A stretch of DNA of 64,000 bases, from assembly GCA_002162675.1 (NCBI GenBank), contig MAAE01000032.1, forward strand, positions 1 through 64,000. The letters run 5' to 3'. The position numbers were made by a program, and so were the translations under genes. The stretch's first letter is position 1; each line of letters begins with the position of its first letter. This DNA comes from Colwellia sp. 39_35_sub15_T18 (GTDB taxonomy: Bacteria; Pseudomonadota; Gammaproteobacteria; Enterobacterales; Alteromonadaceae). Below are positions 31,118 through 54,654 of the stretch, in pieces. The notes beneath the pieces are model-generated. The model worked only from the letters and a program-made list of their open reading frames with translations, made no database searches and was not told where the DNA came from.

Positions 31118-32137
31118 ATGAGTAAAGTGATTAAATTAAAGCTTACATTTTTACTTTTTTGTATGCCATTTTTTGCCAATGCTCAATGGGTTAAACATAG
31201 CTTTAAAGTGATGGGCACTCTGTCTCAAGTTGAATTTTGGCTGGATGAGTCAACGAATGTTTTTGATGATCCAAGTAATGAATTAGATATAAGCCATAGT
31301 AAAAAAGCTCAAAGGTTGATTGCAGCCGTTGAACAAGAAATGTTTCGTATTGATCGGCAAATGAGCCCTTATAAAAAGCAAAGTGAGCTTAGTTTAATTA
31401 ACCGTGAAGCGGCCAATAAAGCAGTGATAATATCAGCTGAGCTGTTTGATTTGCTGAAAACGGCGCAACATATTTCAGCAATGAGCGACGGTGCTTTTGA
31501 TATTACCTATGCTTCAATTGGCTATCAATACAATTACCGAGAAAAAACACGCCCAAGTCAATCGTCAATAATAAAAGCCTTGCCAGCAATTAATTACACC
31601 GCTATTACCTTGAACAAAGAGCAATCAACGGTACATTTTACTCATCAAGGTATAAAAATTGACTTAGGCGGCATTGCCAAAGGGTATGCGGTTAAACGCT
31701 GCTTAAGTTTACTTAAAAACGCAGGGATTAAACATGCTTTAGTGAGTGCTGGTGGTGATACCGGTTTGTTGGGCGATAGGCATGGCCGACCATGGCTAGT
31801 GGGTATAAAGCACCCCAGGGCTGAGCATAAAACGGCGGTTAATATTCCGCTTGAGAATGAAGCTATTTCTACGTCAGGTGACTACGAACGCTATTTTATT
31901 GAAGATGGCATACGCTATCATCACATTATTAATCCTAAAACAGGAGACTCAGCCCGAAAAGTAGTGAGTGTTTCTGTTATTGGTCAAGATCCAACTTATG
32001 TTGATGCACTATCAACAACCGTGTTTGTTAAAGGTCTAGTAGAAGGTATGGCGCTGATTAATAAATTGCCTGACTTTGAAGCCATTATTATTGATAACCA
32101 GCGACGCTTACATTATTCCAGGGGCTTACAACAGTAA
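31118..32137 (+). CDS. apbE: ApbE, FAD:protein FMN transferase
   Basis: The 339-residue exported protein covalently attaches FMN to threonine or serine in target proteins outside the cytoplasm. Residues 1-22 are a signal peptide ending 'FFANA'. 'IDLGGIAKGYAVKRCLSLLK', 'HALVSAGGDTGLLG', 'AISTSGDYERYF' and 'YHHIINPKTGDSA' are ApbE signatures, with 'YVDALSTTVFV' near the end. There is no lipobox cysteine at the cleavage site, so it should be soluble in the periplasm. AAAGG stands before the ATG at 31118; a longer frame starts 13 codons earlier. No FMN-binding-domain target gene is recognisable nearby. The redox cluster beginning at 32.2 kb is the likely context. Confidence 0.9.
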   Translation: MSKVIKLKLTFLLFCMPFFANAQWVKHSFKVMGTLSQVEFWLDESTNVFDDPSNELDISHSKKAQRLIAAVEQEMFRIDRQMSPYKKQSELSLINREAANKAVIISAELFDLLKTAQHISAMSDGAFDITYASIGYQYNYREKTRPSQSSIIKALPAINYTAITLNKEQSTVHFTHQGIKIDLGGIAKGYAVKRCLSLLKNAGIKHALVSAGGDTGLLGDRHGRPWLVGIKHPRAEHKTAVNIPLENEAISTSGDYERYFIEDGIRYHHIINPKTGDSARKVVSVSVIGQDPTYVDALSTTVFVKGLVEGMALINKLPDFEAIIIDNQRRLHYSRGLQQ

Positions 32138-32179
32138 ACCCGATAAAGTAGCTATAACTATCTGCAAATAACTTACAAC

Positions 32180-33775
32180 TTAAGTGTTTATGATGGGCTG
32201 AAAGGCCGTTAATGAATCAAGCATAGTACTATTACCAAGTCCTTGGCCGGGTACCAACGCAGAGAAATTGTTCTGCTCACCGTGCAGTGCCATATAGTTT
32301 AACAACACGGTTTCAACTAATAAATTAACATTGTTGGCTGATGGCGCAGAGGCTGTTTCAACCGAGGCGTCGGTTCGCATGTAACCAATTTGTTGATGCA
32401 TAGCATTTTGCTCAGCTGTCGCCCCCATTAACTGTGGTTTACCTGTGGGATTATAAACAAGAAAAAATGCCGCCCCCGTAGATGAATTATCACCCGTCCA
32501 TTCACCTTTACCTCGACCATTTACCGAGTCATCGATACGGCCATTACTGGCGACAGAGCCATCACTAAAGACATACATCATCAGAGGTTTATTACGCCTA
32601 GCGGCATATTCTAAACAAGCCCCCATACAACGGCCAGCGCGTAAATCCCTTAATTCCCCGGTCGCTCTATCGCCAGTGTGATAATCAAAACCGCCCATGG
32701 TTACGGTGCCAGCGCCTGAAAAACCATTAACGACCAACTTCATAATAGAGGCTGTTTTTTGAAACTCTTGCTCGCTGTCAAACTCGGCTAAACTGAAAAT
32801 ACCACTGGGACCAACAATATCTACATCAAGTAAGGGATCTAACGTGGCAGGATTACCAAAACGATCCGCTAAATCGGCACTTTTTACATAGCCACAATTC
32901 ATCATATCTTTAATGACATCATCACGGGTGACTTGGCTATTTACTTGCGACATTTTTTGCGCACTAATACGCTGAATACTCTCCATGACGGCGACAGCAT
33001 CACTTTGTGAGAGTAATTCAAATAAATCACCGACATCAACTAAACCCGTGACATCAGTAGGGCGATCTATTTTTGTTGGCCGCTTACCCAAATCGATAAA
33101 ACGTGCTGGCGCCATAGAGTTGCCGCCCGAATCGGTATTTCTTGAACCAATCAAAGGCATTAAAGAACCATTAGCACCAGAGGCGGCAATAGCATACATA
33201 GGATTATGTGGATTATTACCCGTGTCATTGTCTGAGCGGCTAGGGATGACGGCACCATTAATATTCGCCGCGGTTTGTGGTGATACTTTTTCTAATATAC
33301 CGCGTAAAAATGCTGAGTCACTATGAAATGCTAAACCTAAATCGGTATTGATAAAATCAGACTGCTCGGCGTTTGGATTCGCTATGGCCGGTGACATATC
33401 GCCAGGTAAACCCAATTTGTTATAACCTGCGGTTGATAAGAAGTCTTGCTGTCCGCCTAAACCGCCGACCAACACATTAGAGCCGGCAATATTAGCGCCA
33501 CCAGCAAGGTCGAAACTAATAAAAGGGATTTTTCCAGCCCCTTGCACGCTAATGCCGCAACTGTCTCGTAAAGCTTCTAAATCACTAGAAAGCGCTGCTT
33601 GGGCATTATTAGAGTTTGCCAACAAACTTAATAACGATGCGCCAGCAACAACATGACCGCCGGTGCGTAAACCCGCGGAAATAAAGTCACGCCGTGTCAT
33701 CGGTTTTTTATGATCGCCATAAAGCAAGGGGCTATCGGGGTGGAAATGTTTCATTTTGTTGATAAATCTACTCAT
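32180..33775 (-). CDS. Tat-exported DUF1501-like protein
   Basis: The 531-residue protein has a twin-arginine signal (residues 26-60: 'MTRRDFISAGLRTGG' and a hydrophobic stretch ending 'NAQA'), so it folds before export. The mature part has the look of DUF1501 (alkaline-phosphatase/sulfatase-like fold): 'IPFISFDLAGGANIAGSNVLVG', 'VTMGGFDYHTG', 'MMYVFSDGSVASNG' and 'NVNLLVETVLLNYMALHGEQ'. In other bacteria DUF1501 genes accompany cytochrome-c-like DUF1585/1592 genes, as here. AAGGAAATAAAT precedes the ATG. It is last in a leftward three-gene unit. The cofactor and substrate are unknown. Confidence 0.8.
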   Translation of the reverse strand: MSRFINKMKHFHPDSPLLYGDHKKPMTRRDFISAGLRTGGHVVAGASLLSLLANSNNAQAALSSDLEALRDSCGISVQGAGKIPFISFDLAGGANIAGSNVLVGGLGGQQDFLSTAGYNKLGLPGDMSPAIANPNAEQSDFINTDLGLAFHSDSAFLRGILEKVSPQTAANINGAVIPSRSDNDTGNNPHNPMYAIAASGANGSLMPLIGSRNTDSGGNSMAPARFIDLGKRPTKIDRPTDVTGLVDVGDLFELLSQSDAVAVMESIQRISAQKMSQVNSQVTRDDVIKDMMNCGYVKSADLADRFGNPATLDPLLDVDIVGPSGIFSLAEFDSEQEFQKTASIMKLVVNGFSGAGTVTMGGFDYHTGDRATGELRDLRAGRCMGACLEYAARRNKPLMMYVFSDGSVASNGRIDDSVNGRGKGEWTGDNSSTGAAFFLVYNPTGKPQLMGATAEQNAMHQQIGYMRTDASVETASAPSANNVNLLVETVLLNYMALHGEQNNFSALVPGQGLGNSTMLDSLTAFQPIINT

Positions 33776-33835: not shown

Positions 33836-36307
33836 TTACTGTATTAGCATCACTGCACTGGCAAGTACGGCTGCACAACTTGATTTGACGATAGTTTTTG
33901 TTCGTACCGCATCGCAATTGGTATCACAGACAGAAAGTTTAGTAATTAAGCTGTTTAACTCATTATAAACCAAGCTTTTATCTGGTTGTGTAGTAACATC
34001 TAATGGCATCAACTGTGCCAATAAAGGGGTTAAGAAATTCGTTCTGCCTGTGGTGTCTAAAGCATCAGCAGGTGTCTGGCTAAAATCAACATTAGGAAAC
34101 CAAGCGCTACGTATAACTGCGTCTTCAATGGCTAAATCACAATAAGCGATGGCGAGTTGGGTGATGCCCATTTGTTGTGCTGAAATAAAGGTTTCAATGT
34201 TTTCCAGTGTAGGCAATTGCTGCTTAACAAGCTGATAGGTATCAAATACCTTGCTGTTGTTTTGTTTTACCCCGGTTAACACGCTCATGCTGGCATTAAT
34301 TTCAGCGAAATTTCGAATGCCTATTTTTGCGCTATCTGTATTGGCAGCTACTTCTATTGGTGGCACGAATGTCGCAGGAATAACCACGTTACTATGTTGG
34401 CCAAGTTGCTCAAAGGTTAAGAAAAATTCATCACTGCTTGACCCTTTCTCTAAACCAATAATCGTGCCTAAAGGCGATATTGATACGGGTGCTGAAATAT
34501 CTTGCCCGCTAGCAATGGTTAAATCCATATTGGCATACGCTTGCCCTAAAGGACTTTCTTTACCGTTTAATCCGATACGCATTTTTTGTAAAATAAGGTC
34601 TTCAGTAAAGGTTTTGTTATCTAAATTAACAATGTTGGCGTTGCTAAATAAGTAGCTGTAATTATCGTACTGGCTAACTTCAAACAATATATAAGTGTTA
34701 CTTAACTCAACTAACTCACTAATAGAAAAAAGTAAAAAGAATTTCTCACCAACGCCGACATCATAATTCTGAGATATTTGTGCTGGCGCTAAGGCGCGGT
34801 TATAGATGGCAAGTAAGCGAATGTTTCCTTGCCAAATATGATTATTTGACGCTTCTCTACCCAATATTAAAGCAAAACTATCATCCCAGGAGGCAATAGG
34901 TGCAATATCTTCATCAGGGATATCTATAAGGTTACCGTTAACATATATTTTTCTGCCTTCACTTGCGGTAAAGGTTATGACGACATGCTGTAAGGTTGCT
35001 TGTAATACTTCGTCGTTGTCGGGAGTACTTAATGCCGGCTCGCCATTACTTGAACTATTTTCACTGCGTAGCATAAAATCGTAGTTATATTGACTTTGCC
35101 CTAAGGTAAAGTTGCGATCATTGTCACCAGCAGAATAGCTAATAATTCTTGCGGGCCCTTCTTGCACAACATTAGTTGGGGTAAGCCATGCTTCCACTGA
35201 AAACTCACCGGTAGAAGTTATTAAGTTATGTAACTTTTTACTGTTCGCTGTGCTTGCTTGGGCTTTGCCATTATTGAATGACAAGCCCCAACTCCCTAAC
35301 CATTCTATATCGCCTGTTAAGGTTAAATTAGCGGCAGGAGAAATACCTGAAGTGTCATAGGCGGTATTACCTTCGCCTGTTTTAAATTGGTAAAGCGCAA
35401 TAATATCTGCTTCGAACCGACCGCCGCTGGAAGCGACTAAACCATCGGTCAGTAGTAAAGATTTTGATACCACCATGTCGGGAGCAATAACATCAAACAG
35501 TATTTCATCACTAAACGATTGAATGGCGGTTTGCATTACATTGCTATTTGCTTGGCAATCGCTCCAACAATTATGAAACTCATTACCTAAACGAAGCACT
35601 AATCTAGATTTTGCGGGGTCTTCTAGATTAATCACTCCTTGCGCGGCTTGATAAGCTTTACTCACGTCTTCATCAGCAAAAAAAGGCGATTGTGCTGTTG
35701 TTGCGGACTCACTATGGCAGGCTGAGCAATATTGGCTTACTAGTGGATGAATATTACTAGTAAATAATGCGCTATCAGCAGGGAAGTTTTTACTACTGCC
35801 AGGTTCGCGAATAACAGGCGGTGTTAATTCAATAGTATTGGCGATACTAACTCTGTCATCGGCCCATAACTTTATCCATTGTTGCATAGTTTCGCCGCAG
35901 GCTTGATCGCTATTTAGCCAGCAATTATGACCACTGCTTACTTTTTCAACCAAGCGAGAGTTTTGAGGTGTGACTAAACTGACTAAAGGATTGGTGGCGG
36001 CATAAGCATCGTTGACATCATGTCTACTGGCAAAGTAGGGCGCTTGCTCTCCTTCAACATGACAAGCACCGCATTTGTCAGTTGTTGATATATTATCCCA
36101 AAGTGCGGTTTTATATTTTTGAATATCGTCTGTGTTTGGCGCTGGACCTGTGTATTCTGAGTTGTTGTTTTCTGTTGGCGCAGGCGGTTGGCTTTCTACT
36201 TCAGAGTCGCCACAAGCCGTTAACATTAAGCTTGAAATAATTAATATAATAACAATGTGTATTTGTTTTGATAGTGAACATGTTAATAAAGAAAATAAAA
36301 ACATCAT
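33836..36307 (-). CDS. Lipoprotein with two cytochrome-c motifs and a LamG-like domain
   Basis: The 823-residue protein begins with a signal ending in the lipobox 'LMLTAC', giving an outer- or inner-membrane lipoprotein. Two related N-terminal segments each contain a CxxCH haem site ('CGACHVEG' near 79, 'CSACHSES' near 194) and a following 'NCW' motif, so a haem domain seems duplicated. A concanavalin A-like/LamG domain follows (about 300-510: 'FSVEAWLTPTNVV', 'HVVITFTASEGRKIYVNG', 'IWQGNIRLLAIYNRAL'), then an unassigned C-terminal region. The ATG at 36307 overlaps the upstream stop codon (TAATG), with GGGGGA before it, so it is coupled to the upstream cytochrome-like gene. Confidence 0.8.
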   Translation of the reverse strand: MMFLFSLLTCSLSKQIHIVIILIISSLMLTACGDSEVESQPPAPTENNNSEYTGPAPNTDDIQKYKTALWDNISTTDKCGACHVEGEQAPYFASRHDVNDAYAATNPLVSLVTPQNSRLVEKVSSGHNCWLNSDQACGETMQQWIKLWADDRVSIANTIELTPPVIREPGSSKNFPADSALFTSNIHPLVSQYCSACHSESATTAQSPFFADEDVSKAYQAAQGVINLEDPAKSRLVLRLGNEFHNCWSDCQANSNVMQTAIQSFSDEILFDVIAPDMVVSKSLLLTDGLVASSGGRFEADIIALYQFKTGEGNTAYDTSGISPAANLTLTGDIEWLGSWGLSFNNGKAQASTANSKKLHNLITSTGEFSVEAWLTPTNVVQEGPARIISYSAGDNDRNFTLGQSQYNYDFMLRSENSSSNGEPALSTPDNDEVLQATLQHVVITFTASEGRKIYVNGNLIDIPDEDIAPIASWDDSFALILGREASNNHIWQGNIRLLAIYNRALAPAQISQNYDVGVGEKFFLLFSISELVELSNTYILFEVSQYDNYSYLFSNANIVNLDNKTFTEDLILQKMRIGLNGKESPLGQAYANMDLTIASGQDISAPVSISPLGTIIGLEKGSSSDEFFLTFEQLGQHSNVVIPATFVPPIEVAANTDSAKIGIRNFAEINASMSVLTGVKQNNSKVFDTYQLVKQQLPTLENIETFISAQQMGITQLAIAYCDLAIEDAVIRSAWFPNVDFSQTPADALDTTGRTNFLTPLLAQLMPLDVTTQPDKSLVYNELNSLITKLSVCDTNCDAVRTKTIVKSSCAAVLASAVMLIQ

Positions 36308-37506
36308 TATTCCCCCATGCAATAAGCGCCAACTTCAGCGAAAACACGCTTAAGTTGATAACTATTTTGTTTAAAAGACTCAGTGGTATTGTTAATTTGT
36401 GCTAAATCAGTAGCGCTTTCAGCTTCACGTAAACAAACACTTTTAAAAACTTTCTTTACCTGACATTGAGCAAAGGCTTGGCTGTTTGCTAACTCTTGAC
36501 CAAAAGATTTAATGCCTGCACCTTGACCTGAAAGGGAAGGGTCCCAACCAAGTTTTTGATTAATACCTTCACGCCAGTAGTTTTGCCATTGATCGCTGTC
36601 AGTTATAAAACCATAAGGAAAGCTGGTGGCGTTGTTATGGTACTTTGCCTTTACGCGAGTATTGGTTATTTGATCAATATTGCCACTAGCATTGTAGTTA
36701 ATGGCGCCACTTTCTGCGTCAGGATCGGTATTGGCATCAAACTGATAGTCGTAATAAGCAAATGCTTGCGCGAGTGGATCCATACCACTATGGCAACCTA
36801 AGCAGTTATTTAAAAATATTCTACTGTCGCCGCCCGGACTGCGACTAACGTCTTGTCTGATACGATCAGGGGGCAAGGTATTATCTTTTAGTGGCTCTAA
36901 ATCAGTGCACATCTGGTTAATAAGGGTAAAACGTAACATGGCTCGATTGGTACCAAGATAAAAAAAGGCTTTAGCGGCGGCTCTGCTGGTTAACACGCCC
37001 GCAGTAGCGCTGCTGGGTAAACCATTTAAGCTAGACTGTGTACTGCTCACTAGTTCATCGGCTAAATTGGTGAAATTATCTTCTAAAGCTTGATAGTGAT
37101 CATTATTATTTTTGTTATAACTAGGCAAGCCAAGCGTTTCACTACCAATATAGGTAATATCGCCCTGTAAAATTTGTCGAAAATCGATATCATCTCTGAC
37201 AATACCAATAACAGTGGCACTGTAATCATTTAAAGGCGCGAAAATATCTTGCTCTTTATTTGTCCAAGGCGTAGCAAAAAGCTTTAACGTCGTGGTATAA
37301 AAATGGGGTGACTCCATCGCTTTGTAAGCGGCTTCAATGGTTTGATCATTATTTAATAACGTTACCATTTCATTGAGTATTGCTTCCGATGCAGGAGCAC
37401 CAACAAGTCGGTCGTGTAATCGCTTTGCTTGTTCGAGCGATGAGGCTTCTACCGCAGCGATAGAAGTTATGATCAAAATACAAAAACATATCATCAATCG
37501 TGACAT
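36307..37506 (-). CDS. Exported haem-c protein, DUF1588/DUF1592-like
   Basis: The 399-residue protein has a signal peptide (residues 1-20, ending 'AAVEA') and one haem-binding CxxCH in 'FLNNCLGCHSGMDPLAQAFAYYDYQ', a context typical of DUF1588-like regions of planctomycete-type cytochrome proteins. The rest is mostly helical ('AGVLTSRAAAKAFFYLGTNRAM'). The start at 37506 is chosen because the signal peptide begins there and GGA lies eight bases upstream; the frame is open for 31 more codons. It is first in the leftward unit, with the control region for the whole cluster upstream. Confidence 0.75.
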   Translation of the reverse strand: MSRLMICFCILIITSIAAVEASSLEQAKRLHDRLVGAPASEAILNEMVTLLNNDQTIEAAYKAMESPHFYTTTLKLFATPWTNKEQDIFAPLNDYSATVIGIVRDDIDFRQILQGDITYIGSETLGLPSYNKNNNDHYQALEDNFTNLADELVSSTQSSLNGLPSSATAGVLTSRAAAKAFFYLGTNRAMLRFTLINQMCTDLEPLKDNTLPPDRIRQDVSRSPGGDSRIFLNNCLGCHSGMDPLAQAFAYYDYQFDANTDPDAESGAINYNASGNIDQITNTRVKAKYHNNATSFPYGFITDSDQWQNYWREGINQKLGWDPSLSGQGAGIKSFGQELANSQAFAQCQVKKVFKSVCLREAESATDLAQINNTTESFKQNSYQLKRVFAEVGAYCMGE

Positions 37507-37631
37507 AATCTTGTTCCGCAAATATATTCTTGTATTCGGTTGTAGAAACACCCTCATACAGGCCCCCTTGAAGATGTGAATAGCAATAAAATAAGACATT
37601 TATACCATTAACATCTTATTAATCAATAAAC

Positions 37632-40834: not shown

Positions 40835-41586
40835 TGATGTTGAAAGTGAAACTTTTATGGCTAACTTTATTTCTTTTCAGTTTGATTGTTTATGCTGCAA
40901 GTGTTTTAGCCGACGACAAACCGATAGAGTTACAAATAGCGGTGTCCTATATTGAGTTACATTCAGGACCAGGCGTTGGTTACCCAATATTAAATGTTAT
41001 TGAAAAAGGTGAGTCCGTTGAGGTTTTAGTTAAGCGAACCAGTTGGTTAAAGGTAAAAGATCAACGCAATAACATTGGTTGGTTAAATCAAAATGATTTA
41101 TTTGGCTTAACTCAACAAGGTGAAAAAATTGTTCAATCAGAGCTGACCTTAACTGATTTTCAACATAGAGACTATGAAGCGGGTGTTATGTATGGTGATT
41201 TCGACGGCGCAGATTTTTATAATATTTATTTAGGTTACGCCTTGTCACCGGTGTTTAGTGCTGAAATCTCTGCGGGTAAAGCATTAGGCAGTATTTCAGA
41301 CAGTGATTTATATGAAGTCATGCTCATTAGTCAGCCATTTCCTGAGCTAATCGTTATTCCTTATATTGGTGTTGGCGGCGGTATTATAAACACCAAGCCA
41401 CATAGTGTCTTAGCCGATTCAGAAAATAGACAAGATACCTTAATGTCCGTCGCCATCGGTTTAAAATACCATTTAGCCCGTAATTTTTTATTGCGGGCTG
41501 AATATAAATACTCCTTAGTGTTAACAGATAGAGATGATAATGAAGAGGTTCAAACATGGAAATTAGGTTTCAGCGTGTTTTTTTAG
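40834..41586 (+). CDS. SH3-domain plus outer-membrane beta-barrel protein
   Basis: The 250-residue protein has a signal peptide (1-26, ending 'SVLADD'), a bacterial SH3 domain (about 30-90: 'VSYIELHSGPGVGYPILNVI', 'LVKRTSWLKVKDQRNNIGW'), which usually binds peptidoglycan or cell-wall peptides, and an eight-strand-like barrel (about 105-250) with an aromatic C-terminus ('TWKLGFSVFF'). This pairing would fix a barrel to the wall. Similar SH3-barrel proteins are found beside gliding-type ExbBD clusters. It overlaps both neighbours (TAATG upstream, 31 bases downstream). Confidence 0.8.
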   Translation: MMLKVKLLWLTLFLFSLIVYAASVLADDKPIELQIAVSYIELHSGPGVGYPILNVIEKGESVEVLVKRTSWLKVKDQRNNIGWLNQNDLFGLTQQGEKIVQSELTLTDFQHRDYEAGVMYGDFDGADFYNIYLGYALSPVFSAEISAGKALGSISDSDLYEVMLISQPFPELIVIPYIGVGGGIINTKPHSVLADSENRQDTLMSVAIGLKYHLARNFLLRAEYKYSLVLTDRDDNEEVQTWKLGFSVFF

Positions 41587-42428: not shown

Positions 42429-42460
42429 TTAATCATATAGTAACAAGGTTAAATATCATC

Positions 42461-42985: not shown

Positions 42986-42987
42986 TA

Positions 42988-44425: not shown

Positions 44426-45019
44426 ATGAACAAAGTTAATTTTATCGTCAAAATGAAAACATTAGTATTTTTGCTGATCGCTATTAGTGCCAGTACTTTT
44501 TGTGTGCAACAAAGTCATGCGCAACAAGTGCCTTCTGCACAACAAGGATTAATCTCACAGCAGTCAACAAGCAGTGCACTAAGTAAAGAGGTACAGCAGT
44601 TGAAATCGCAAGTGTTACAGCTTAATCGCGAGCTTTTCATTCTAGAAGAAGATTTATTATTTCCTGCCAGCACTCAAATTGCTATTTTTGTGTCAGTGGA
44701 CATTGGTCGTTTTTTTAAATTAGACAGTGTTGAAGTTAAAATTGATGAACAAGATGTTGCTGGCTTTTTGTACACCGACAGACAAAGAATAGCGCTAGAG
44801 CAAGGGGGAATACAAAAGCTTTATTTAGGCAATCTTAAATTAGGCAAGCATCAGCTTACGGCTATTTTTATTGGTGTAGATAATGAAGGACGAGCCATTA
44901 AAAGAGCGATAAACCATACTTTTACAAAAGAAGATGACTCATTAATGATTGAACTGAAAGTTGTCGATAATACCGGTAATTACCGAGCACAGGTGGTAGT
45001 TGAAGAGTGGGTGTTATAG
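44426..45019 (+). CDS. Exported coiled-coil protein of the trans-envelope cluster
   Basis: I do not recognise a named family. The 197-residue protein has a signal peptide (about 1-32, ending 'QSHAQQ'), a Gln/Ser-rich linker, a coiled coil ('LSKEVQQLKSQVLQLNRELFILEEDLL', about residues 52-78, given here in part) and a beta-rich C-terminal domain with 'VEVKIDEQDVAGFLYTDR' and 'LGNLKLGKHQLTAIFIG'. It should be periplasmic and could be a spacer or adaptor between the inner-membrane motor and the TPR lipoproteins. It is followed after four bases by the first TPR gene. Confidence 0.65.
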   Translation: MNKVNFIVKMKTLVFLLIAISASTFCVQQSHAQQVPSAQQGLISQQSTSSALSKEVQQLKSQVLQLNRELFILEEDLLFPASTQIAIFVSVDIGRFFKLDSVEVKIDEQDVAGFLYTDRQRIALEQGGIQKLYLGNLKLGKHQLTAIFIGVDNEGRAIKRAINHTFTKEDDSLMIELKVVDNTGNYRAQVVVEEWVL

Positions 45020-45023
45020 TTCT

Positions 45024-47210: not shown

Positions 47211-50200
47211 ACTTGCATGCTTTGCCTGTTACTACAAAATTATTATTAGTACTGAGCCTTTCTTTAGCTTTGCTGTCTGCTTGTCAAAGTACTTCTGAGT
47301 CAGATTCATCTGATAAAAATGCATCGGTTCAACGAGCAACATTAACTGATTTAGCTAATGAGCAGATTGCAAATGAGTTAGAAAATCAAGCGAACAGCGT
47401 TGAAACAATACCATTGATGAGTAAAGCACAACGCTCAGCCAAATTGGCGTCTTTATATCAAGATATTTTAACATTAGAGCCTGATCAAGAGGTTCGAGCT
47501 AAAATTGAATATAGACTTGTACAAATAGGCACACAAGCTTATGAACAGCAAGATGATACCCCAGAAGCGGAAAATAATTCATCCTCGTTAATGGCGCTTG
47601 TGGCTTCCTACCAAACTTTATTAACGCGCTTTCCTGATCGGGGCGAAAATGAAGAAATTCATTATCAGCTTGCTAAAGCGTTAAGTTTACAAGGTAAGTT
47701 GGATGAGAGCCTGTTGCAAATAGAGACGTTATTGACAAAGTATCCTGAGAGTAAATATGCTGCGGAATTGCACTTTAGGCGTGGAGATATTTATTATAAT
47801 TTGCAACATTACTCGCAAGCTTTGTTGGCATATCAAAATGTGTTGCGCTTAAAAAATAGTGCTGAGTATTATGTCAATAGCGTGTACATGTCAGGGTGGA
47901 CGTTATTTAAAATGAATCGCTTACCAGAGGCGGATGAAACATTTTTAGCTCTATTAGACCATATTGTTGGGCAAGAAAAAGTACAACCCTTTGAAGATAA
48001 CTTTAGCTTTTCATCGCTAGATAAGCGTTATGTTAGTTTAGTGAGTGATATTCAGCGAGTGTTGAGTGTTTCGTTGAGTCAACAACAGCAAGCAAAATCA
48101 TTGCTTGCTTTAGTTAATAGCCATGAAAAAAAGCAACAAAAACATAGTTATTTGTATTTGTATCGTCATCTGTTATTTAAAAACTTAGCGGATTTTTTGC
48201 TTGAAAATGGTTTGAAATACGATGCTGAACTCACTTTTCAAGCCTATTTAGCCTTGGCGCCCAATAATATTTGGGCAGCAAGATATTCTTTGGCATTGAT
48301 TGAGTTATATCAACAACAAGGTAAATATCAAGCAATACGGGCATTGAAGATTCAATATGTGCAGCAATATGGTTTGCAGAGTGAATTTTGGCAACAAGGT
48401 ATCACCGCAAACCGTGCTGATATTGTTAATGAAGCATTGTTAATGGTGGAAATATTACCTAATTTATTAACCTTCAGTTATCAACACAGCCGGTATTTAT
48501 ACGCACAAGCACAGTCAACAACAATTGCGACAGCGAAAATTCAAGCGTTTGCCAATACAGCACATTGGCTAGGCATATATCTATCACTTGCCAAGCAACC
48601 ACAAGCAGCATCACTAATAAGTAAACTCGCGTTGGGTCAAGGCTTGTTAGCCGATGAGCTGTTGTATGCTGATGCCCGCTTTGAAGCCCAACATTATCAA
48701 CAAGCTTTAAAGAGTTATGAGTATATTGCTTATCAGGCACCAACAAGCGCTCAGCAGTTAAAACCACTGCGTAAAGAGGCGGCTTATGCAGCCACGTTAA
48801 CTATTCGTGCAATGTTAGCCTTGCACGCAAAGGTGTATGCCAAAGCAGAGGGTAAAGAAAAAAGTAACAGCGCTATCGCAGTAAAAAGTGCAGTAACTAG
48901 TGCAGTAACTAGTGCAGACAATACTAATGGCGAGCAAACTTTATTTTTAGCACGAACACGCTTAGATAAAGCCTTTATTGAACATTACCCTGATGATGAA
49001 CGATCATTAACCCTAGCTGTTCAGCAGGCGCAATATGCCTTTGCTAATGAAAATCATCAAGCGTTGCAATATTACAGTTATTTTATTTTGCAAAGCCATG
49101 GCGTCATTGCTCGTACTGATGGCAATAGTAGTATGTATAAAAGTAATGTTTCGAAAAATAGTGTTTCAGAAAGTAGACTTTCAAACAATAGACAGTCAAA
49201 TAAAGTCATCAACCATAATAAAATTTCAGCACAATTAACAGCTAAGGCACGAAAACAAGTACAAATTGCCAGCCAGTTGCAGGCAAATAACTTGTATCAA
49301 CAAGGTCAATATACTCAGGCTGAAGTAGACTACAACTTGGCGCTTAATTATGTTGTTGTTAACAGTCAACTTTGGCTTAAAATGCGAGAGTTGTTAGCGG
49401 CCAGTATATATTTTCAAGGGAAAAGCTTGGTTTTATCGCAACCATTATTGGCTGTTGAACATTATTTACGCATAGGTAGACAAGTTCCAGAGTCAAGTTA
49501 CCGCCTTAGTGCTCATTTTGATGCCGCTAACTTATTGCTTGCTCAACAACAATGGCAACATGCTGTTGATGTTTTATTAGCCTTTCAAAAACGTTATCCA
49601 AATCATGAATATAGTCGCTCAATTCCTGCAAAATTGGCTCAGTCTTATCAACATTTAGAGCAATGGGAAATGGCGGCGACGCAGTATCTAGCTATTATTA
49701 CCTTAGCAAAATCTACTTCAGGAGCGGGCTCAACAGAATTACAACGAGAGGCCTTGTATAGTGCCGCAGAGCTTTATTTAAAAGCGGGTGATTTAGGTAA
49801 AGCTATCAGTACTTTTAGAACCTACGCTCATACTTATCCTGAACCTTTTGATATTGCACAAGAAGTACGCTTTAAAATGAGTGGCTTTTATCAACAAACA
49901 AGAGAACCAAACAAGCAATATTACTGGTATCGAAAAATCATTAAATACCATGAGCAGACCTTTAGTTCATCAACAAAAGTACCTAATTCTCGTGCTGTTT
50001 ACTTGGCCTCTGTGGCGGCTTTAGGCTTAGGTGAAGCACACCAACAAACGTTTAAGCACAGTAAACTAACACTGCCACTAAATAAAAGCTTAGCGCGCAA
50101 ACAAAAAGCGATGAAATTAGCGATTGGCTATTATAAAAAATTGCTGTCATGGCAATTAGCCGAATTTGTGCCCCATGGTACTTATAATTTAGCACAAATG

Positions 50201-50497
50201 TATCGGCAATTAGGCTTAGATGTTATGTCTTCACAGCGGCCGAAAAATCTAGATGAGCTTGCTTTGGAAGAATACGATTTATTATTAGAAGAACTTGTTT
50301 ATCCGTTTGAAGAAAAAGCCATAGAAATTCATACCAATAACGCACAACGTGCTTGGCAAAATGTTTATGATCAATGGGTTAAAAAAAGCTTTGTTGCCTT
50401 AGCAGAGTTAGAGCCTGCTTTATATGACAGAAGCTACAAACGCAGTAAAACTGATAAAAAGGAGTGTGATGTCGATGCGGTTCATACCTTACATTAA
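47207..50497 (+). CDS. Large TPR lipoprotein
   Basis: The 1096-residue protein begins with a lipoprotein signal ('LLSACQST', lipobox Cys about 26). It contains many TPR units, for example 'EEIHYQLAKALSLQGKLDES', 'AELHFRRGDIYYNLQHYSQA', 'DAELTFQAYLALAPNNIWAA' and 'EALYSAAELYLKAGDLGKAI'. Two Ser/Asn-rich low-complexity linkers interrupt them, near residues 555-575 ('SAVTSAVTSAD', a 12-bp tandem repeat) and 640-665. It resembles the TPR proteins (GltD/GltE type) of the Glt machinery in size and context; this is inference. Its 3' end overlaps the next gene. Confidence 0.8.
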   Translation: MNLHALPVTTKLLLVLSLSLALLSACQSTSESDSSDKNASVQRATLTDLANEQIANELENQANSVETIPLMSKAQRSAKLASLYQDILTLEPDQEVRAKIEYRLVQIGTQAYEQQDDTPEAENNSSSLMALVASYQTLLTRFPDRGENEEIHYQLAKALSLQGKLDESLLQIETLLTKYPESKYAAELHFRRGDIYYNLQHYSQALLAYQNVLRLKNSAEYYVNSVYMSGWTLFKMNRLPEADETFLALLDHIVGQEKVQPFEDNFSFSSLDKRYVSLVSDIQRVLSVSLSQQQQAKSLLALVNSHEKKQQKHSYLYLYRHLLFKNLADFLLENGLKYDAELTFQAYLALAPNNIWAARYSLALIELYQQQGKYQAIRALKIQYVQQYGLQSEFWQQGITANRADIVNEALLMVEILPNLLTFSYQHSRYLYAQAQSTTIATAKIQAFANTAHWLGIYLSLAKQPQAASLISKLALGQGLLADELLYADARFEAQHYQQALKSYEYIAYQAPTSAQQLKPLRKEAAYAATLTIRAMLALHAKVYAKAEGKEKSNSAIAVKSAVTSAVTSADNTNGEQTLFLARTRLDKAFIEHYPDDERSLTLAVQQAQYAFANENHQALQYYSYFILQSHGVIARTDGNSSMYKSNVSKNSVSESRLSNNRQSNKVINHNKISAQLTAKARKQVQIASQLQANNLYQQGQYTQAEVDYNLALNYVVVNSQLWLKMRELLAASIYFQGKSLVLSQPLLAVEHYLRIGRQVPESSYRLSAHFDAANLLLAQQQWQHAVDVLLAFQKRYPNHEYSRSIPAKLAQSYQHLEQWEMAATQYLAIITLAKSTSGAGSTELQREALYSAAELYLKAGDLGKAISTFRTYAHTYPEPFDIAQEVRFKMSGFYQQTREPNKQYYWYRKIIKYHEQTFSSSTKVPNSRAVYLASVAALGLGEAHQQTFKHSKLTLPLNKSLARKQKAMKLAIGYYKKLLSWQLAEFVPHGTYNLAQMYRQLGLDVMSSQRPKNLDELALEEYDLLLEELVYPFEEKAIEIHTNNAQRAWQNVYDQWVKKSFVALAELEPALYDRSYKRSKTDKKECDVDAVHTLH

Positions 50498-51356
50498 ATT
50501 TTCACCTAGCTATTTCACCGGTAATAACCCCCTTTCTTTGACGGTGTTATTACTACTGACGTTGTTGATCTCGGCTTGTAGTAGTATGCCTGAAAAAACT
50601 GATAGCGCGGGTGAATCAAATGACTTGAAGAGCATGAGCAAAAATATCACTGATTTGGTGGCGTTACCCAGCAACGCACAAATTAAGCAAATTCAAACGT
50701 CTAATGGCATGCAGCAGACCATATTAAAGAGTAAAAATACTTATCTTGAACAAGAAGAACTCTTAATGAATGGTGTGGCTGAAGAGGTGATAGCCACTTA
50801 TCAGCAAGCACTAGTTTTAATGAAACAACAAGAATGGTACGCAGCCAATGCCTTGTTTGAGCAAGTTATTGCCAAGCAAGCTAATTTGTCAGGAAGTTAT
50901 GTAAACCAAGCGCTTATATTGACAGCGTTAAGTAAACAGCAACAAGGCGCTAAAGCCACTGAGCAAGCTAATCAATCTAAGCAGGCTAAACAACCTAAGC
51001 AAGCTAATCAAGTTACCGCGAGTGAATTATTACTAGACAAAGCGATTAGTGTTAATCCCTTAAACCCTTATGCTCATTACTTTAAAGGGCAATTATTGCA
51101 AGAAAAGGGGCAGTTTGAACAGGCTGAACAATACTATGCTACGGCCTTGTCTATTTGGCCTAATTATAGGCAAGCGCAGTTGGATATGGCTGTTTTATTG
51201 GAATTGTATCGAGGCAAATTGCTTGATGCTTACCAGTATTATGCTGCTTATTTGCAACTCAACGTGGACGATAAGCAGGTACAACGTTGGCAAGCAGCCC
51301 TAGCTATTAAAATTAAACGAGCAGGGCTAACATTGCCTGTACAGGAAGGAGAGTAG
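50469..51356 (+). CDS. TPR lipoprotein
   Basis: The 295-residue protein has a lipobox ('LLISACSSMP') and two or three TPRs ('YQQALVLMKQQEWYAANALF', 'PYAHYFKGQLLQEKGQFEQA', 'YYATALSIWPNYRQAQLDMA'). A Lys/Gln/Ala tract 'ANQSKQAKQPKQANQ' lies between TPRs and is coded by short tandem repeats. The ATG at 50469 has AAAGGAG directly upstream; the ATG at 50475 is also possible. It begins inside the preceding gene and is followed by a two-base gap, so the TPR genes and the next are tightly coupled. Confidence 0.8.
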   Translation: MSMRFIPYIKFSPSYFTGNNPLSLTVLLLLTLLISACSSMPEKTDSAGESNDLKSMSKNITDLVALPSNAQIKQIQTSNGMQQTILKSKNTYLEQEELLMNGVAEEVIATYQQALVLMKQQEWYAANALFEQVIAKQANLSGSYVNQALILTALSKQQQGAKATEQANQSKQAKQPKQANQVTASELLLDKAISVNPLNPYAHYFKGQLLQEKGQFEQAEQYYATALSIWPNYRQAQLDMAVLLELYRGKLLDAYQYYAAYLQLNVDDKQVQRWQAALAIKIKRAGLTLPVQEGE

Positions 51357-51357
51357 T

Positions 51358-51717
51358 ATGAGATGTATCTTTAGAAAATCTGCTGCTTTTATGGCAAGTA
51401 TGACAAAAACAGTGATATTTTTTACCACAATCATCATGTCTTTACCGATAGCGGCAACTGAAGTTCAAAAAATCACTCCGTCAAAAACAGCACCTTTGGT
51501 GATCGAAAGCCAAGTTAAGGGCTCACAAGAGCAGCCCAATGTTATTTATATTATGCCGTGGCAAGGCATTGCAAACCCCATCAGTATTGAAGGCAATCAA
51601 CAAAAAATTGTTCTACCTCACTTTAAACCGATTAACCCTAAATTATTTAAACAACAGGCAACACTTTTTTATCAGGTCAATTCAAGTAAGAAAGTTCAAC
51701 TAAGCAAAAGTAAGTAA
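51358..51717 (+). CDS. Small exported protein of the trans-envelope cluster
   Basis: No family is recognised. The 119-residue protein has a signal peptide (about 1-33, ending 'LPIAATE') and a soluble remainder with 'NVIYIMPWQGIANPISIEG' and 'LPHFKPINPKLFKQQ'. GGAAGGAGAG precedes the ATG. Its place between the TPR lipoproteins and the ExbB gene suggests it is a fixed periplasmic component of the machine. A 127-base gap then leads to exbB. Confidence 0.6.
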   Translation: MRCIFRKSAAFMASMTKTVIFFTTIIMSLPIAATEVQKITPSKTAPLVIESQVKGSQEQPNVIYIMPWQGIANPISIEGNQQKIVLPHFKPINPKLFKQQATLFYQVNSSKKVQLSKSK

Positions 51718-51844: not shown

Positions 51845-52495
51845 ATGAGTTTTATCGACAGCATAATTGCATTTTTACAAAATGGCGGTTCATTTATTTA
51901 CCCTATCGCCTTGGTCTTGGTGGTGGGTTTAGCCATTACCATCGAGCGTTGGTTATATTTAAGTTCGGCACTAAGAACTAATCAAAAAGCGTTACTTTCA
52001 TTGCAAAGTGCGCTGAAAAAAGGTGACATTGATGCCATTAGTGAACAAGCGAAAAATAATTCTGCGCCAGTACTTGACGTTTTAGAGTCAGGTATTGCCC
52101 GCTTATCTACGGTCAAGCGTCGAGAAGATGTTGAATATGCGATGGAGGAAACCATTATGGAATATATGTTGCGTTTAGAAAAGCGTACCCCGTATTTAGC
52201 CACGCTAGCCAACATTGCCACGTTATTGGGCTTACTCGGTACTATCATGGGTTTAATTGCGGCTTTCTCCGCAGTGGCAAACGCAGATCCAGCAGAAAAA
52301 GCTAACTTGTTATCATCAAGTATTTCTGTGGCAATGAACACCACCGCTTTTGGTTTAATTACCGCTATTCCGCTAATTTTATTTCACACCACTTTAATGA
52401 GTAAAACGGCAACTATTGTTGATTCATTAGAAATGGCGGGTATTAAATTGCTCAACTCACTGTCTTTTGGCCCTGTAGATTCAAACCGAGGCTAA
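51845..52495 (+). CDS. exbB: ExbB/TolQ/MotA-family proton channel protein
   Basis: The 216-residue protein has three membrane helices (about 15-35, 113-135, 160-182) and the family core 'LATLANIATLLGLLGTIMGLIAAFSAV' (given in part) and 'AMNTTAFGLITAIPLILFHT', with the threonines of the proton path. It forms a pentamer around ExbD/TolR dimers and turns the proton gradient into movement across the envelope. Here it is the motor stator of the TPR/AgmX-tail cluster and not a plain TonB system, since two ExbD genes and a myxobacterial-type TonB follow. AGAAGGAAAAAAAC precedes the ATG. Confidence 0.9.
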   Translation: MSFIDSIIAFLQNGGSFIYPIALVLVVGLAITIERWLYLSSALRTNQKALLSLQSALKKGDIDAISEQAKNNSAPVLDVLESGIARLSTVKRREDVEYAMEETIMEYMLRLEKRTPYLATLANIATLLGLLGTIMGLIAAFSAVANADPAEKANLLSSSISVAMNTTAFGLITAIPLILFHTTLMSKTATIVDSLEMAGIKLLNSLSFGPVDSNRG

Positions 52496-52499
52496 TATT

Positions 52500-53081
52500 A
52501 TGAGACGTCGTCGTCGCATTAAGTCGCCAGAGGCTGAGTTAGATATTACCTCGTTTATGAATTTGATGATTGTACTGGTGCCGGTATTATTATTGAGTTT
52601 AGTATTTTCTCAGGTGCGTATTTTAAACTTACAATTACCGGTTGCTGCGCAAGAGCAAGATCAACAAACAGCAGATGAGCCTAAAGTATTAGAATTAGTG
52701 ATCAGCCAAACGGGTTTTGAACTAAATTACCCGAGTGGTATTTTATTGAAGACCTTTGAAAAAACTGAGCAAGGTTACAATTTTTTGCTGTTATCTAAAT
52801 ATTTACAAGACTTAAAGTTAACCTTTCAGCAAAATGATATTGAAAAAAATGACATTTTGATCTTACTAGCCCCCGAAGTCGATTACCAAACTATCGTGTC
52901 AGCTATGGATACGGTTCGCTCCTTCAAAGCAGTTGTTGCCGCTAATCTTGTTGATGCAGAATTGTTTCCTCAAATATCTCTGGGCGATGCACCTGAGCTA
53001 ACATTATCTGTAGAGAATAGCTTGCCTGTAGAAAATACTTTACCAGCGAATAAAGAGAGCAGCACAGGAGGCAAACTATGA
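52500..53081 (+). CDS. ExbD/TolR-family protein 1, channel Asp replaced by Asn
   Basis: The 193-residue protein has a short Arg-rich cytoplasmic tail, one membrane helix ('FMNLMIVLVPVLLLSLVFS', residues 19-37) and a periplasmic domain. In ExbD and TolR an aspartate in the pattern F-x-D-x-M is the proton carrier (Asp25 in E. coli ExbD). Here the place is Asn21, so this subunit cannot carry protons in the usual way. It begins four bases after exbB and overlaps exbD2 by four bases. A pair with the second ExbD, which keeps the Asp, is likely. Confidence 0.87.
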   Translation: MRRRRRIKSPEAELDITSFMNLMIVLVPVLLLSLVFSQVRILNLQLPVAAQEQDQQTADEPKVLELVISQTGFELNYPSGILLKTFEKTEQGYNFLLLSKYLQDLKLTFQQNDIEKNDILILLAPEVDYQTIVSAMDTVRSFKAVVAANLVDAELFPQISLGDAPELTLSVENSLPVENTLPANKESSTGGKL

Positions 53082-53659
53082 AGCAGTCAGCAAGAGCCAA
53101 AAGGCTTGCTAAGCACCATAAACGCTTTAGTAGTACTTCTAAGTTAAACTTAGTGTCATTGATGGATATTTTTACTATCTTGGTGTTCTTTCTTATTGTT
53201 AACCAATCAGAGGTTCGCGTATTAGAAACAACAAAGCAAATAAATTTACCTGTTTCTATCGCCGAAGAGTTGCCGAGTGAAAATATATTGATAACCGTAC
53301 TTAATAACAGTGTTTTGGTACAAGAACGCGCGGTATGGCAGCAAGACGTTGCTTTAAATGAGCTTAGTCACAACTCACTGGCTAATAACAACTCATTGGT
53401 TAGTAACAACTCATTGGTTAGTAATAATGAACAGTTAATTGATGCGCTTAAAACCGAGTTAGCTTATTTAGCTGCAAAGCGCCCTCAATTGAGTGAGTCA
53501 GAGCAAGAGAAGGGCAGATCGGTAACTATTATTGGCGATGCTACTGTGCCGTACCAAGTGTTAAAACAAATTATGGCGGCTTGTGCGGATAGTGATTACA
53601 GAAATATGTCTTTAGCCGTGAAGCAAATGGTGAAAAGCAGGCAAGGGGAGGGTAAATAA
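53078..53659 (+). CDS. ExbD/TolR-family protein 2, with channel Asp
   Basis: The 193-residue protein has one membrane helix with 'LVSLMDIFTILVFFLIV', Asp30 being in the proton-carrier place, and a periplasmic domain ending in a TolR/ExbD-like fold ('VTIIGDATVPYQVLKQIMAAC'). A repeated stretch 'NNNSLVSNNSLVSNNEQ' (about residues 106-122), from an 18-bp tandem repeat, lies in the periplasmic linker. It overlaps the preceding gene by four bases and its TAATG joins the next. Confidence 0.87.
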   Translation: MKQSARAKRLAKHHKRFSSTSKLNLVSLMDIFTILVFFLIVNQSEVRVLETTKQINLPVSIAEELPSENILITVLNNSVLVQERAVWQQDVALNELSHNSLANNNSLVSNNSLVSNNEQLIDALKTELAYLAAKRPQLSESEQEKGRSVTIIGDATVPYQVLKQIMAACADSDYRNMSLAVKQMVKSRQGEGK

Positions 53660-54654
53660 TGACGACAGCAACGTTACCCAGCCATGTTAGTTTTATTAAC
53701 AGTGCAAGCTTTCAAAATTTTTATGAGTTATTTAAACCGAGCGAGCAAGATAAAAAATTTACCACCATTCTCGTTATTCTATTTGCGTTGTATTTTATTA
53801 TTGCGGTGATAGTGCCTTTTTTAGAGCAAGTAGAAGTGCCGCGTTCGGTAAAGGAGCAAGTTCCAGTACAGCTGGCTAGAATTGTTTTGAAAGAAAAACA
53901 ACTGCCTTTGCCAGAAAAGCCGAAAGAAATAATCGTTGAAGAGAAAAGAATTGCAGAAAAACCAGAAGAGCTAAAAACAGAGAAGCTTAAAGATGAACCG
54001 ATAACACCACCCACACCTTTATCGATAGAGAAAAGGCGAGATCTTGCCAAACAACAAGCTAAAACATCCGGCTTAGCGGCGATGAAAGATGAACTTTTTG
54101 CCATGCGTGAAGCTTTTGATGTTGTGCCAGCCGCTAAAACAACCTTGAGTAAAGAAAAATCGTCAGAAACTAAAATTAAACGCAAGTTACTCGCGGGGGC
54201 AGTAAATAAGCAAAGTACGACATTAAGTGCGGCTAAAACCTCACGAGTGGTCAATAGTGATGAATTAAGCACACGTAATACCCAACAAGTACGTCTTTCT
54301 GAAGAGGAAGTACTGGCAAGCACTGATGTGCTAGTAGCAGAGAGTTTGGCAGCGAGTAACTCTGGGCAACGCTCAGAAATGTCGTTACGACGTACTTTAG
54401 AGGCGCATAAATCACGCCTTTATGCTCGTTACAATCGGGCCTTGCGCAAAGACCCTTTTTTGCAAGGAAAGGTGTTATTTGAACTTGAAATTCAGCCTAA
54501 TGGTAACGTCAGTAAGGTTGACATTAAATCAAGTGAACTCAATAACGCTAAATTAGAGCGACAATTGTTAGTGATTTTACGGTCAATTACTTTTCCCACA
54601 GAGGATGTGGCGGTCATGGTCACTATTTGGGCGATTGATTTTTTACCGAGCTAA
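53659..54654 (+). CDS. TonB-like protein with AgmX/PglI-type C-terminal domain
   Basis: The 331-residue protein has one membrane helix ('FTTILVILFALYFIIAVIV', residues 35-53), a Pro/Glu/Lys-rich periplasmic stalk (70-130) and a C-terminal domain (about 245-331) with 'LYARYNRALRKDPFLQGKVL', 'FELEIQPNGNVSKVDIKSSE' and 'LVILRSITFP'. That last pattern (Y..L..P.LQGKV...I...G.V......S.....FP) is that of the AgmX/PglI tail in myxobacterial motility and secretion proteins. It probably carries the motor's force to outer-membrane parts. It is the last gene of the run. Confidence 0.85.
   Translation: MTTATLPSHVSFINSASFQNFYELFKPSEQDKKFTTILVILFALYFIIAVIVPFLEQVEVPRSVKEQVPVQLARIVLKEKQLPLPEKPKEIIVEEKRIAEKPEELKTEKLKDEPITPPTPLSIEKRRDLAKQQAKTSGLAAMKDELFAMREAFDVVPAAKTTLSKEKSSETKIKRKLLAGAVNKQSTTLSAAKTSRVVNSDELSTRNTQQVRLSEEEVLASTDVLVAESLAASNSGQRSEMSLRRTLEAHKSRLYARYNRALRKDPFLQGKVLFELEIQPNGNVSKVDIKSSELNNAKLERQLLVILRSITFPTEDVAVMVTIWAIDFLPS

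Follow-up and report, generated by a model that had tools for sequence, protein, structure and literature searches.

In Myxococcus xanthus, the Agl-Glt/Nfs motors move outer-membrane complexes (Wartel 2013, PMC3858216), and a core complex of this type has been reported outside the Deltaproteobacteria, Gammaproteobacteria included, as one cluster with one extra gene without known function (Luciano 2011, PMC3169522). Another described arrangement consists of clusters that hold ApbE, a flavin-accepting DUF3570 protein, a DUF4266 protein with a CXC motif and a thioredoxin-like protein, 316 clusters without DsbD having been reported (Meheust 2021, PMC8238504). Parts of both kinds are present in one block of 19 genes (31118–54654) within a stretch of 64,000 nucleotides (the window; positions 1 to 64,000 of contig MAAE01000032.1, assembly GCA_002162675.1) from Colwellia sp. 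39_35_sub15_T18. The block consists of ApbE; of a redox module with a protein exported by the twin-arginine translocation (Tat) pathway, a LamG lipoprotein, a PSD-like protein, a hydrazine-synthase-alpha-like (HzsA-like) lipoprotein, an SH3 protein with a small barrel (SH3bar), the small barrel OMP_myx_plus, TlpA, DUF4266 and DUF3570; and of a motor module with five envelope proteins (p11 to p15), ExbB, two ExbD and a protein with an AgmX tail.

An initial annotation of the window had proposed that an envelope redox module and a proton-driven trans-envelope motor belong together here, in a combination known from no described system. The named parts from ApbE to AgmX were confirmed at their positions, and no described system combining the two halves was found in the full-text literature searched (part of it judged by title and the start of the abstract). 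The association itself is upheld by co-occurrence, by a neighbourhood that is repeated in different orders and by the position of ApbE beside motor genes. We therefore consider it highly probable that the redox module and the motor form one functional system; this confidence was set slightly lower because ApbE stays with the motor in seven, and not all, of the nine order genomes in which the modules are separated. The system is a recurrent two-module system of Gammaproteobacteria, larger than first stated. As to its role, we lean, somewhat beyond even confidence, towards a single machine of the Agl/Glt/Nfs type whose dedicated client is a flavin-haem apparatus of the outer envelope, which the motor would assemble, move or gate. 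In favour of one machine, the redox markers almost always come with the motor tail (in order, class, family and Tat-gene samples), and ApbE often sits in the motor cluster although DUF3570, the family with its motif, belongs to the redox module.

Co-occurrence and arrangement of the two modules

Four marker searches were made in the same sample of 119 genomes of the order (genomes are cited below by G-codes and loci by L-codes). HZS_alpha was found in 16 genomes, OMP_myx_plus was over its cut-off in the same 16, and DUF4266, which occurs somewhere in 31 genomes, lay beside both in all 16. The AgmX tail was over cut-off in 23 genomes, including all 16 redox genomes (hypergeometric probability 9e-15, relatedness ignored). 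In the class sample (321 genomes), OMP_myx_plus, AgmX and HZS_alpha were over cut-off in 49, 73 and 47 genomes, respectively, two further OMP_myx_plus matches under the cut-off having been dropped (G210, G269). AgmX was present in 47 of the 49 OMP_myx_plus genomes; the other two are drafts of about 500 and 440 contigs (G185 and G304), and in G304 DUF3570 continues into p11-p12-p13 before the contig ends. Counted by family, 26 of the 27 redox families are also among the 41 AgmX families (hypergeometric probability 2e-18; about 162 families sampled in the class, a number inferred from codes), so that the redox set and the motor become one testable question. In a sample of the phylum, seven of 219 genomes gave a match, six of them over cut-off, and all lay in the window's class (the share of the 219 outside the class is not stated).

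A profile search of genome contigs with the alignment of the Tat-exported protein gave at least 581 relatives, of which 80 loci were kept. These include Colwellia, Shewanella (frigidimarina, electrodiphila and others), Ferrimonas, Thalassotalea, Catenovulum, Aliiglaciecola, Paraglaciecola and Alteromonas, as well as Pseudoalteromonas denitrificans, Rheinheimera, Glaciecola, Microbulbifer, Sedimenticola, Chromatiaceae and tubeworm endosymbiont records; according to the records, cultured strains of Shewanella, Colwellia, Paraglaciecola and Microbulbifer are among the carriers. Within 10 kb flanks of the 80 loci, LamG was found in 79, PSD in 78, HzsA in 74, SH3bar in 73, TlpA and OMP_myx_plus in 70 each, DUF3570 in 69, ApbE in 41 and DUF4266 in 35, counts that are lowered by contig ends and, for DUF4266 above all, by a map that drops overlapping small open reading frames (ORFs). 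The AgmX tail was over cut-off in all 50 genomes searched of the 80 found through the Tat-exported gene, a set that is not independent of the samples above (judged by contig numbers and places, L138 appears to be the same genome as G006, and L187 the same as G323). The record of L138 (NZ_JAGHQT010000001.1) is titled Endozoicomonas sp. G2_1, yet G006 belongs to the window genome's family, and the record name may be wrong.

In the 14 order genomes with long contigs, the Tat, LamG and PSD genes are divergent from a run of HzsA, SH3bar, OMP_myx_plus, TlpA, DUF4266 and DUF3570 (in the other two, G017 and G058, the contig begins or stops inside HzsA), and the motor module of the order genomes reads p11, p12, p13, p14, p15, ExbB, ExbD1, ExbD2 and AgmX. 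The position of one module relative to the other is variable. In seven of the 16 redox genomes (G000, G006, G020, G031, G090, G105, G113), AgmX is found downstream of DUF4266, 10–12 kb away and on the same strand. In G038 it lies next to the redox module in convergent orientation, in G003 it is some 24 kb from it, and in G014 and G059 the distance is large; five drafts (G013, G016, G017, G029, G058) have it on a different contig. Among the nine order genomes with apart or convergent modules, ApbE stands directly behind AgmX in seven (G003, G013, G014, G029, G038, G058, G059). In the class sample, AgmX is within 20.2 kb of OMP_myx_plus in 19 of 49 genomes (12 downstream on the same strand, two upstream on the same strand and five upstream on the other strand). 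Across the samples, the layouts seen where the modules are neighbours are redox and motor on one strand, redox-ApbE-motor, divergent modules, and motor before redox. That the neighbourhood is kept in such unlike orders argues for function over frozen descent. The place of ApbE itself differs: of the 29 loci of the window type in G-coded genomes in which it was placed, 15 have it adjacent to a motor gene and 18 adjacent to a redox gene, six of these having it next to both, and in two it is next to neither. It stands between DUF3570 and p11 in G132, G198 and G322, between the Tat gene and p11 in G271 and G380, before p11 or p13 in G161, G301 and G153, and between HzsA and the Tat gene in G255. 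Of the 41 placements in named loci, ApbE adjoins the motor in L167, L171, L175, L184 and L186; in L139, its p14 neighbour is probably a chance TPR match.

Several observations weigh against the two modules forming one system. In the class sample, the motor tail occurs without OMP_myx_plus in 26 of 321 genomes, seven of the 49 OMP_myx_plus genomes have no HZS_alpha match, five HZS_alpha genomes lack OMP_myx_plus, and some redox genomes carry extra motor copies. AgmX is 509 kb from OMP_myx_plus in G401, on other contigs in 27 of the 49 genomes (mostly drafts) and absent in two. Two separated genomes of the order sample, G016 and G017, do not have ApbE behind AgmX; their redox contig continues into p11 (in G016 also into p12 and p13) before ending, and a joined motor may have been cut off there by the contig end. 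Among nine separated class genomes whose motor stretch was read, G153 alone has ApbE directly beside the motor; in G407 a small ORF stands between the two. ApbE lies at the Tat gene in G199 and is unseen in the stretches read of G195, G246, G314, G391, G401 and G426. A variant in G162, G244, G274, G304 and G361 has no Tat, LamG or PSD gene in the stretch read. Finally, co-occurrence was counted per genome and per family rather than along a species tree. Two independent functions, kept close by chance, shared ecology or shared expression, would accommodate the genomes with the motor alone or with the halves on different contigs, and also a tree of 57 motor sets (concatenated proteins, quick method, no bootstrap), on which the linked, separate and motor-only states must have changed into one another several times. 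Such independence is nevertheless quite improbable, given that a redox half lacking the motor was hardly ever seen and that ApbE is often in the motor cluster. Thus, independent conservation and separation of the halves, which the initial annotation had named as the finding that would speak against it, holds in part for the motor half and does not hold for the redox half. A single monophyletic 'redox motor' is not supported by the same tree, on which the linked state takes at least seven changes and the motor-only state at least six on starred branches.

Two deviating arrangements were also seen. In the variant without the Tat, LamG and PSD trio (L054, L056, L060, L062, L066), ApbE has as its neighbour an HzsA with a lower score, and HzsA and SH3bar are separated by an additional gene of about 170–180 aa. 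The other is the outlier G135 (L076, L077), with no HZS_alpha match, a DUF3570 without the flavin motif and an Asp in ExbD1, in which the barrels, TlpA, DUF3570 and the motor are still neighbours.

The predicted flavin, thiol and haem proteins

The first gene of the block encodes ApbE (31118..32137, + strand; PF02424, 264 bits), a FAD:protein FMN transferase with a signal peptide. ApbE transfers FMN to the motif D-x-x-[ST]-G-A-[ST], in which the change of Gly to Ala leaves about half of the flavinylation (PMC12052999), and a DUF3570 protein has been reported to be flavinylated in Escherichia coli when its ApbE is co-expressed (PMC8238504). The DUF3570 protein of the window (43142..44392, +; PF12094, 147.5 bits; TTG start as listed, the true start probably downstream) carries twin D-x-x-[ST]-x-A-S motifs, namely D-T-I-S-S-A-S and D-V-L-S-T-A-S. 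Of the 49 rows of a DUF3570 alignment, 12 are gapped at the motif (cut copies and misaligned rows, the motif being present in several of them on separate reading), and the 37 usable rows keep the first Asp in 36, the Ala in 35 and the Ser in 35. In homologues of at least 450 bits, the loose form D..[ST][GSA]A[ST] is present in 68 of 68 and the strict form D..[ST]GA[ST] in 14 of 68; rows below 450 bits, including those of G135, G023 and G380 (where the gene is in two ORFs), were dropped from these counts. Elsewhere in the block, the loose motif occurs in at most two members of any other family, with a background of 3 in 439 ORFs, and DUF3570 is the sole family of the 19 that regularly carries it. 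Because of this regularity in DUF3570 and rarity in the other block families, DUF3570 is likely the substrate of ApbE.

The structural model of DUF3570 (pLDDT 80) is a barrel of 16 strands. Residues 109–123 lie between strands 3 and 4, and the long loops (109–123, 228–256, 319–345 and 388–399) all follow odd strands and would therefore all be on one side; if strand 1 starts in the periplasm, the motif loop and the other long loops would face outward. The initial annotation had counted two barrels. Both small ones are present, that is, the SH3 domain with a small outer-membrane barrel (40834..41586, +; PF08239 and PF13505 over cut-off) and OMP_myx_plus (41556..42293, +; TIGR04565, 152 bits, cut-off 60), and the total is three, DUF3570 itself being a predicted barrel. 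The putative thiol pair is formed by a TlpA/ResA-type thioredoxin with the sequence WASWCGPC (42416..42985, +; PF00578/PF08534) and by the DUF4266 lipoprotein with CXC at its end (42988..43233, +; PF14086, 77.9 bits). Among the homologues fetched, which are the basis of all motif counts given here for thiol and haem proteins, WCxxC is found in 43 of 43 TlpA-type proteins and the C-terminus [GS]GCGCN in 41 of 41 DUF4266 proteins. ApbE, DUF3570, the CXC-bearing DUF4266 and the thioredoxin-like protein therefore occur together in the block as in the clusters of Meheust (2021, PMC8238504), and no family match to DsbD was found among the 20 proteins scanned. The block differs from those clusters in that its motif is mostly D-x-x-S-S-A-S and in that haem proteins, two small barrels and a motor are associated with the set, whereas ExbB appears 0 times in the main text of that article. 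The window genome holds a second set of ApbE, DUF3570, DUF4266 and TlpA on another contig (G000:C31; L039:8958-12157 approximately), with the canonical motif D-A-L-T-G-A-S, a far higher DUF3570 score (511 bits) and no motor genes in the 20 kb read.

Three proteins of the module carry CxxCH motifs and would be loaded with haem. The HzsA-like lipoprotein (38102..40834, +; PF18582, 58.8 bits) has a propeller repeat, an HZS_alpha middle domain and two CxxCH, and its homologues have two CxxCH in 31 of 37 cases and three in the remaining six. The LamG lipoprotein (33836..36322, − strand; PF13385, 77 bits; TTG start as listed, the true start probably further in) has two, as do 29 of 29 homologues, and the PSD2/PSCyt3-like exported protein (36307..37599, −; PF07624, 17.9 bits; PSD2 and PSCyt3 both under their cut-offs) has one, as do 30 of 30. 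The sole PDB relative of the HzsA-like protein at E≤0.01 is the alpha subunit of hydrazine synthase (5c2v, E 1e-17), with which it shares the propeller stretch, the middle domain with CxGCH and the C-terminal segment. It differs in lying far under the HzsA equivalog (45.7 bits against a cut-off of 800). No match to HzsB or HzsC (beta/gamma) was found among the block proteins, the library models for both being unchecked and the rest of the genome unsearched. Hydrazine synthesis is not supported as the function, given the equivalog score, and no anammox organism appears in the titles of the 80 kept loci, among the matches listed via the Tat-exported gene. A wider family of hydrazine-synthase-like enzymes has been suggested (PMC10732223). 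The window genome also encodes a distant long HzsA-like paralogue of about 1275 aa (G000:C12; L040, ORF from 2168; HZS_alpha 40 bits), and further weak second HZS_alpha matches, in frames of 994–1459 aa, are seen in G006, G182, G199, G314 and G318. In Colwellia maritima (L110), the HzsA-like and LamG genes appear split into several ORFs, which may reflect decay or sequencing errors.

The protein presented by the initial annotation as a Tat-exported DUF1501 protein (32180..33775, −) retains the first part of this description, with the RRx[FLV] pattern of the Tat signal in 94 of 106 homologues, and loses the second, for it has no Pfam match and none of 20 homologues matches the DUF1501 model at E≤0.1. 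It is the most conserved of six aligned families (61% mean column identity, 20 sequences), and its model has a weak likeness to the alkaline-phosphatase/phosphoglycerate-mutase type (best Foldseek E 0.018, TM-score 0.16). This likeness to phosphatases and sulfatases is one of the points that would suit polymer transport of the Nfs type, in which a surface polymer would be pulled along by the motor and, once exported, be modified or cross-linked by the redox proteins. The Agl-Nfs system transports a spore-coat polymer (PMC3858216), the LamG domain could bind glycan, and the many generic barrels that Foldseek returns for the DUF3570 model include two exporters of exopolysaccharide, PelB and AlgE. 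We regard polymer transport as unlikely, because no polysaccharide synthesis or export family was found among the 19 block proteins and the neighbouring HAD protein, and LamG is also found on planctomycete-type cytochromes.

The motor and its possible work

The motor module is opened by p11 (44426..45019, +), an exported protein with no Pfam family over cut-off, followed by the exported TPR-type protein p12 (45000..47210, +; family scan and synteny), the long TPR lipoprotein p13 (47207..50497, +; PF07719, with a weak YbgF/BamD likeness), the short TPR lipoprotein p14 (50424..51356, +) and the small exported protein p15 (51358..51717, +; placed by synteny). Then come an ExbB/TolQ/AglR-like proton-channel subunit (51845..52495, +; PF01618, 98 bits), ExbD1 (52500..53081, +; PF02472, 40 bits), ExbD2 (53078..53659, +; PF02472, 52 bits) and an inner-membrane-anchored protein with an AgmX/PglI tail (53659..54654, +; NF033768, 60 bits, cut-off 40), predicted to have a TonB-like role. 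With Agl-Glt/Agl-Nfs of M. xanthus and the gammaproteobacterial core complex, the block shares a cluster that combines a single ExbB/TolQ-like protein with two of the ExbD/TolR-like kind, together with TPR envelope proteins and an AgmX-type tail. Its TPR proteins are of a kind that may correspond to GltC and GltD. The Glt equivalogs are not reached in the block (GltG 37.2 bits against 650, GltJ 30 against 450, and GltE, in p14, 15 against 225), and the block motor is thus Glt-like but not classed as Glt. It also differs from Agl-Glt/Nfs in travelling with flavin, thiol and haem proteins; 'cytochrome' and 'thioredoxin' appear 0 times in the main text of Luciano (2011, PMC3169522), whose listed loci may include the present ones. 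These comparisons bear on an engine for gliding or surface motility, with the redox parts as accessories of adhesion or sensing, which would have the same core kinds of parts as the Myxococcus motor (PMC3169522); with the GltG, GltJ and GltE models so far under cut-off, we consider such an engine very improbable.

The channel segment of ExbB is mostly invariant (53 sequences). At the pore position, all 53 ExbD2 sequences have Asp, whereas ExbD1 has Asn in 49, Ser in three (the second copy of G016, G041 and G096) and Asp in one (G135), so that the Asn/Asp pair is kept in 49 of 53 motor sets, including most motor-only ones. In Myxococcus, the D28N change in AglQ abolishes proton conductance (PMC3858216), and the pore Asp is ascribed to AglQ as well as to AglS (PMC9389320), in contrast to ExbD1. 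The natural Asp/Asn combination suggests that the two form a heterodimer with a single proton site, or that the second subunit has a structural role, and the Asn in one ExbD would allow the number of proton sites required by a motor of this kind to be tested. A conserved His is mentioned for the transmembrane segment of TonB/TolA (PMC12204202), and none was found in the transmembrane helix of the AgmX protein across 54 sequences. The block shares with TonB-ExbB-ExbD and Tol-Pal the proton-channel family and an inner-membrane-anchored transducer, and differs from them in its two unlike ExbD and in this helix. The same anatomy would suit energised uptake, where a TonB-like motor opens a barrel that imports a metal or ligand, reduced or released by the flavin and haem proteins; flavin clusters are often linked to iron uptake (PMC8238504), and the top Foldseek row for DUF3570 is the TonB-dependent receptor Cir, but at a TM-score of 0.37 and as one of many barrels. 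Uptake likewise appears unlikely to us: TonB_C is under cut-off in the block (14.9 against 24.6 bits), no TonB-dependent receptor family was matched among the block proteins, and long TPR proteins are not known as parts of Ton systems.

In the favoured reading of one dedicated machine, ExbB, the two unlike ExbD and the AgmX-tailed transducer would convert proton flow into force, and the TPR proteins would pass this force through the periplasm to the small outer-membrane barrels, as in Myxococcus Agl-Glt/Nfs. The dedicated client would be the DUF3570 barrel with up to two covalent FMN groups attached by ApbE, in a presumed physical complex with the TlpA and DUF4266 thiol pair and with haem parts (the two-haem HzsA-like and two-haem LamG lipoproteins and the one-haem PSD-like protein, plus the Tat-exported partner). 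The motor would most likely assemble, move or gate this redox apparatus at the outer membrane. The 'energised delivery, assembly or movement' of a surface redox complex, put forward in the initial annotation, would be compatible with these proteins. Some features fit the dedicated machine less well: neither motif of the window DUF3570 conforms to strict [ST]GA[ST] (SSAS and STAS), the low-scoring DUF3570 of G135 and G023 are without the flavin motif, and the ExbD1 Asn and the helix without His deviate from what the Ton/Tol model predicts. If the reading is true, redox chemistry joins motility, polymer transport and nutrient import as a task of proton-driven envelope machines. A more specific and tentative version, which we hold to be possible but rather doubtful, is a mechanically driven surface flavin-haem conduit, in which a motor with the protonatable residue in just one of its two ExbD would position or cycle the barrel, with FMN on a loop that faces outward, and so power electron exchange with large or solid extracellular partners; if true, this would supply a role for the 'core complex' of Gammaproteobacteria, to which none had been assigned in 2011.

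Lipoproteins, intergenic regions and setting

Lipoboxes are readable on five proteins, as the initial annotation had noted (LamG, HzsA-like, DUF4266, p13 and p14). A loose lipobox pattern is present in 95 of 106 LamG, 96 of 109 HzsA-like, 92 of 112 DUF4266, 38 of 62 p13 and 45 of 59 p14 homologues, and Asp at position +2 is rare in these five families. A residue other than Asp at +2 suits an outer-membrane location, and the lipobox residues would thus suit outer-membrane lipoproteins. The rightward genes (38102–54654) do overlap or nearly touch, with gaps of at most 127 bp, the longest at 42294–42415 and 51718–51844 (lengths based on ORF starts as listed, the true starts possibly lying further in). 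A promoter scan gave 55 sites against 51.7 in shuffles and a terminator scan 9 against 14.8; because these counts are not above shuffles, a single transcript is neither supported nor broken by them.

The PSD-HzsA intergenic regions of 71 loci were compared with 213 mononucleotide shuffles, using consensus words of Fur, FNR, CRP and ArcA. Fur words were found in 2 of 71 regions against 8 of 213 shuffles at up to five mismatches, and in 23 against 40 at up to six; the excess at six, not seen at five, would be in line with energised uptake. FNR words (up to one mismatch) occurred in 10 regions against 10 shuffles, ArcA words (up to three mismatches) in 7 against 16, and CRP-like palindromes (up to one mismatch) in 8 against 1, a possible hint of catabolite control. 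In a motif search on 56 of these regions, the element GACATTATTGCC was above shuffled controls; it was rejected as a general operator, as its strong matches are a homologous stretch in Shewanella, Ferrimonas and some Colwellia-type records. In that group (L118-L141), a conserved element CTTGACATTATTGCC, in most followed by CAGTGTTTCAA, is situated mostly 66–84 bp upstream of the hzsA-like gene and may be a promoter or leader. The second motif of the search resembles a ribosome-binding site with a start codon.

The window is contig C2 of a 4.0 Mb genome in 72 contigs. Colwellia records, at 85–95% identity, make up the ten nearest named loci among the matches listed via the Tat-exported gene (records very near the window possibly omitted). 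The 19 block proteins and the neighbouring HAD protein, 20 in all, were scanned with Pfam and NCBIfam models. The block is flanked by housekeeping genes, rluC-HAD (29324–30977) and maf-yceD (54766–56027). Ten further genes scanned at 2901–28517 and 54766–58370 include ordinary ones: a LysR regulator, LamB_YcsF with CT_C_D and CT_A_B, a DEAH helicase with DUF3418, glucose-6-phosphate dehydrogenase, an ILVD/EDD dehydratase, RNase E/G, Maf and an acyl transferase.

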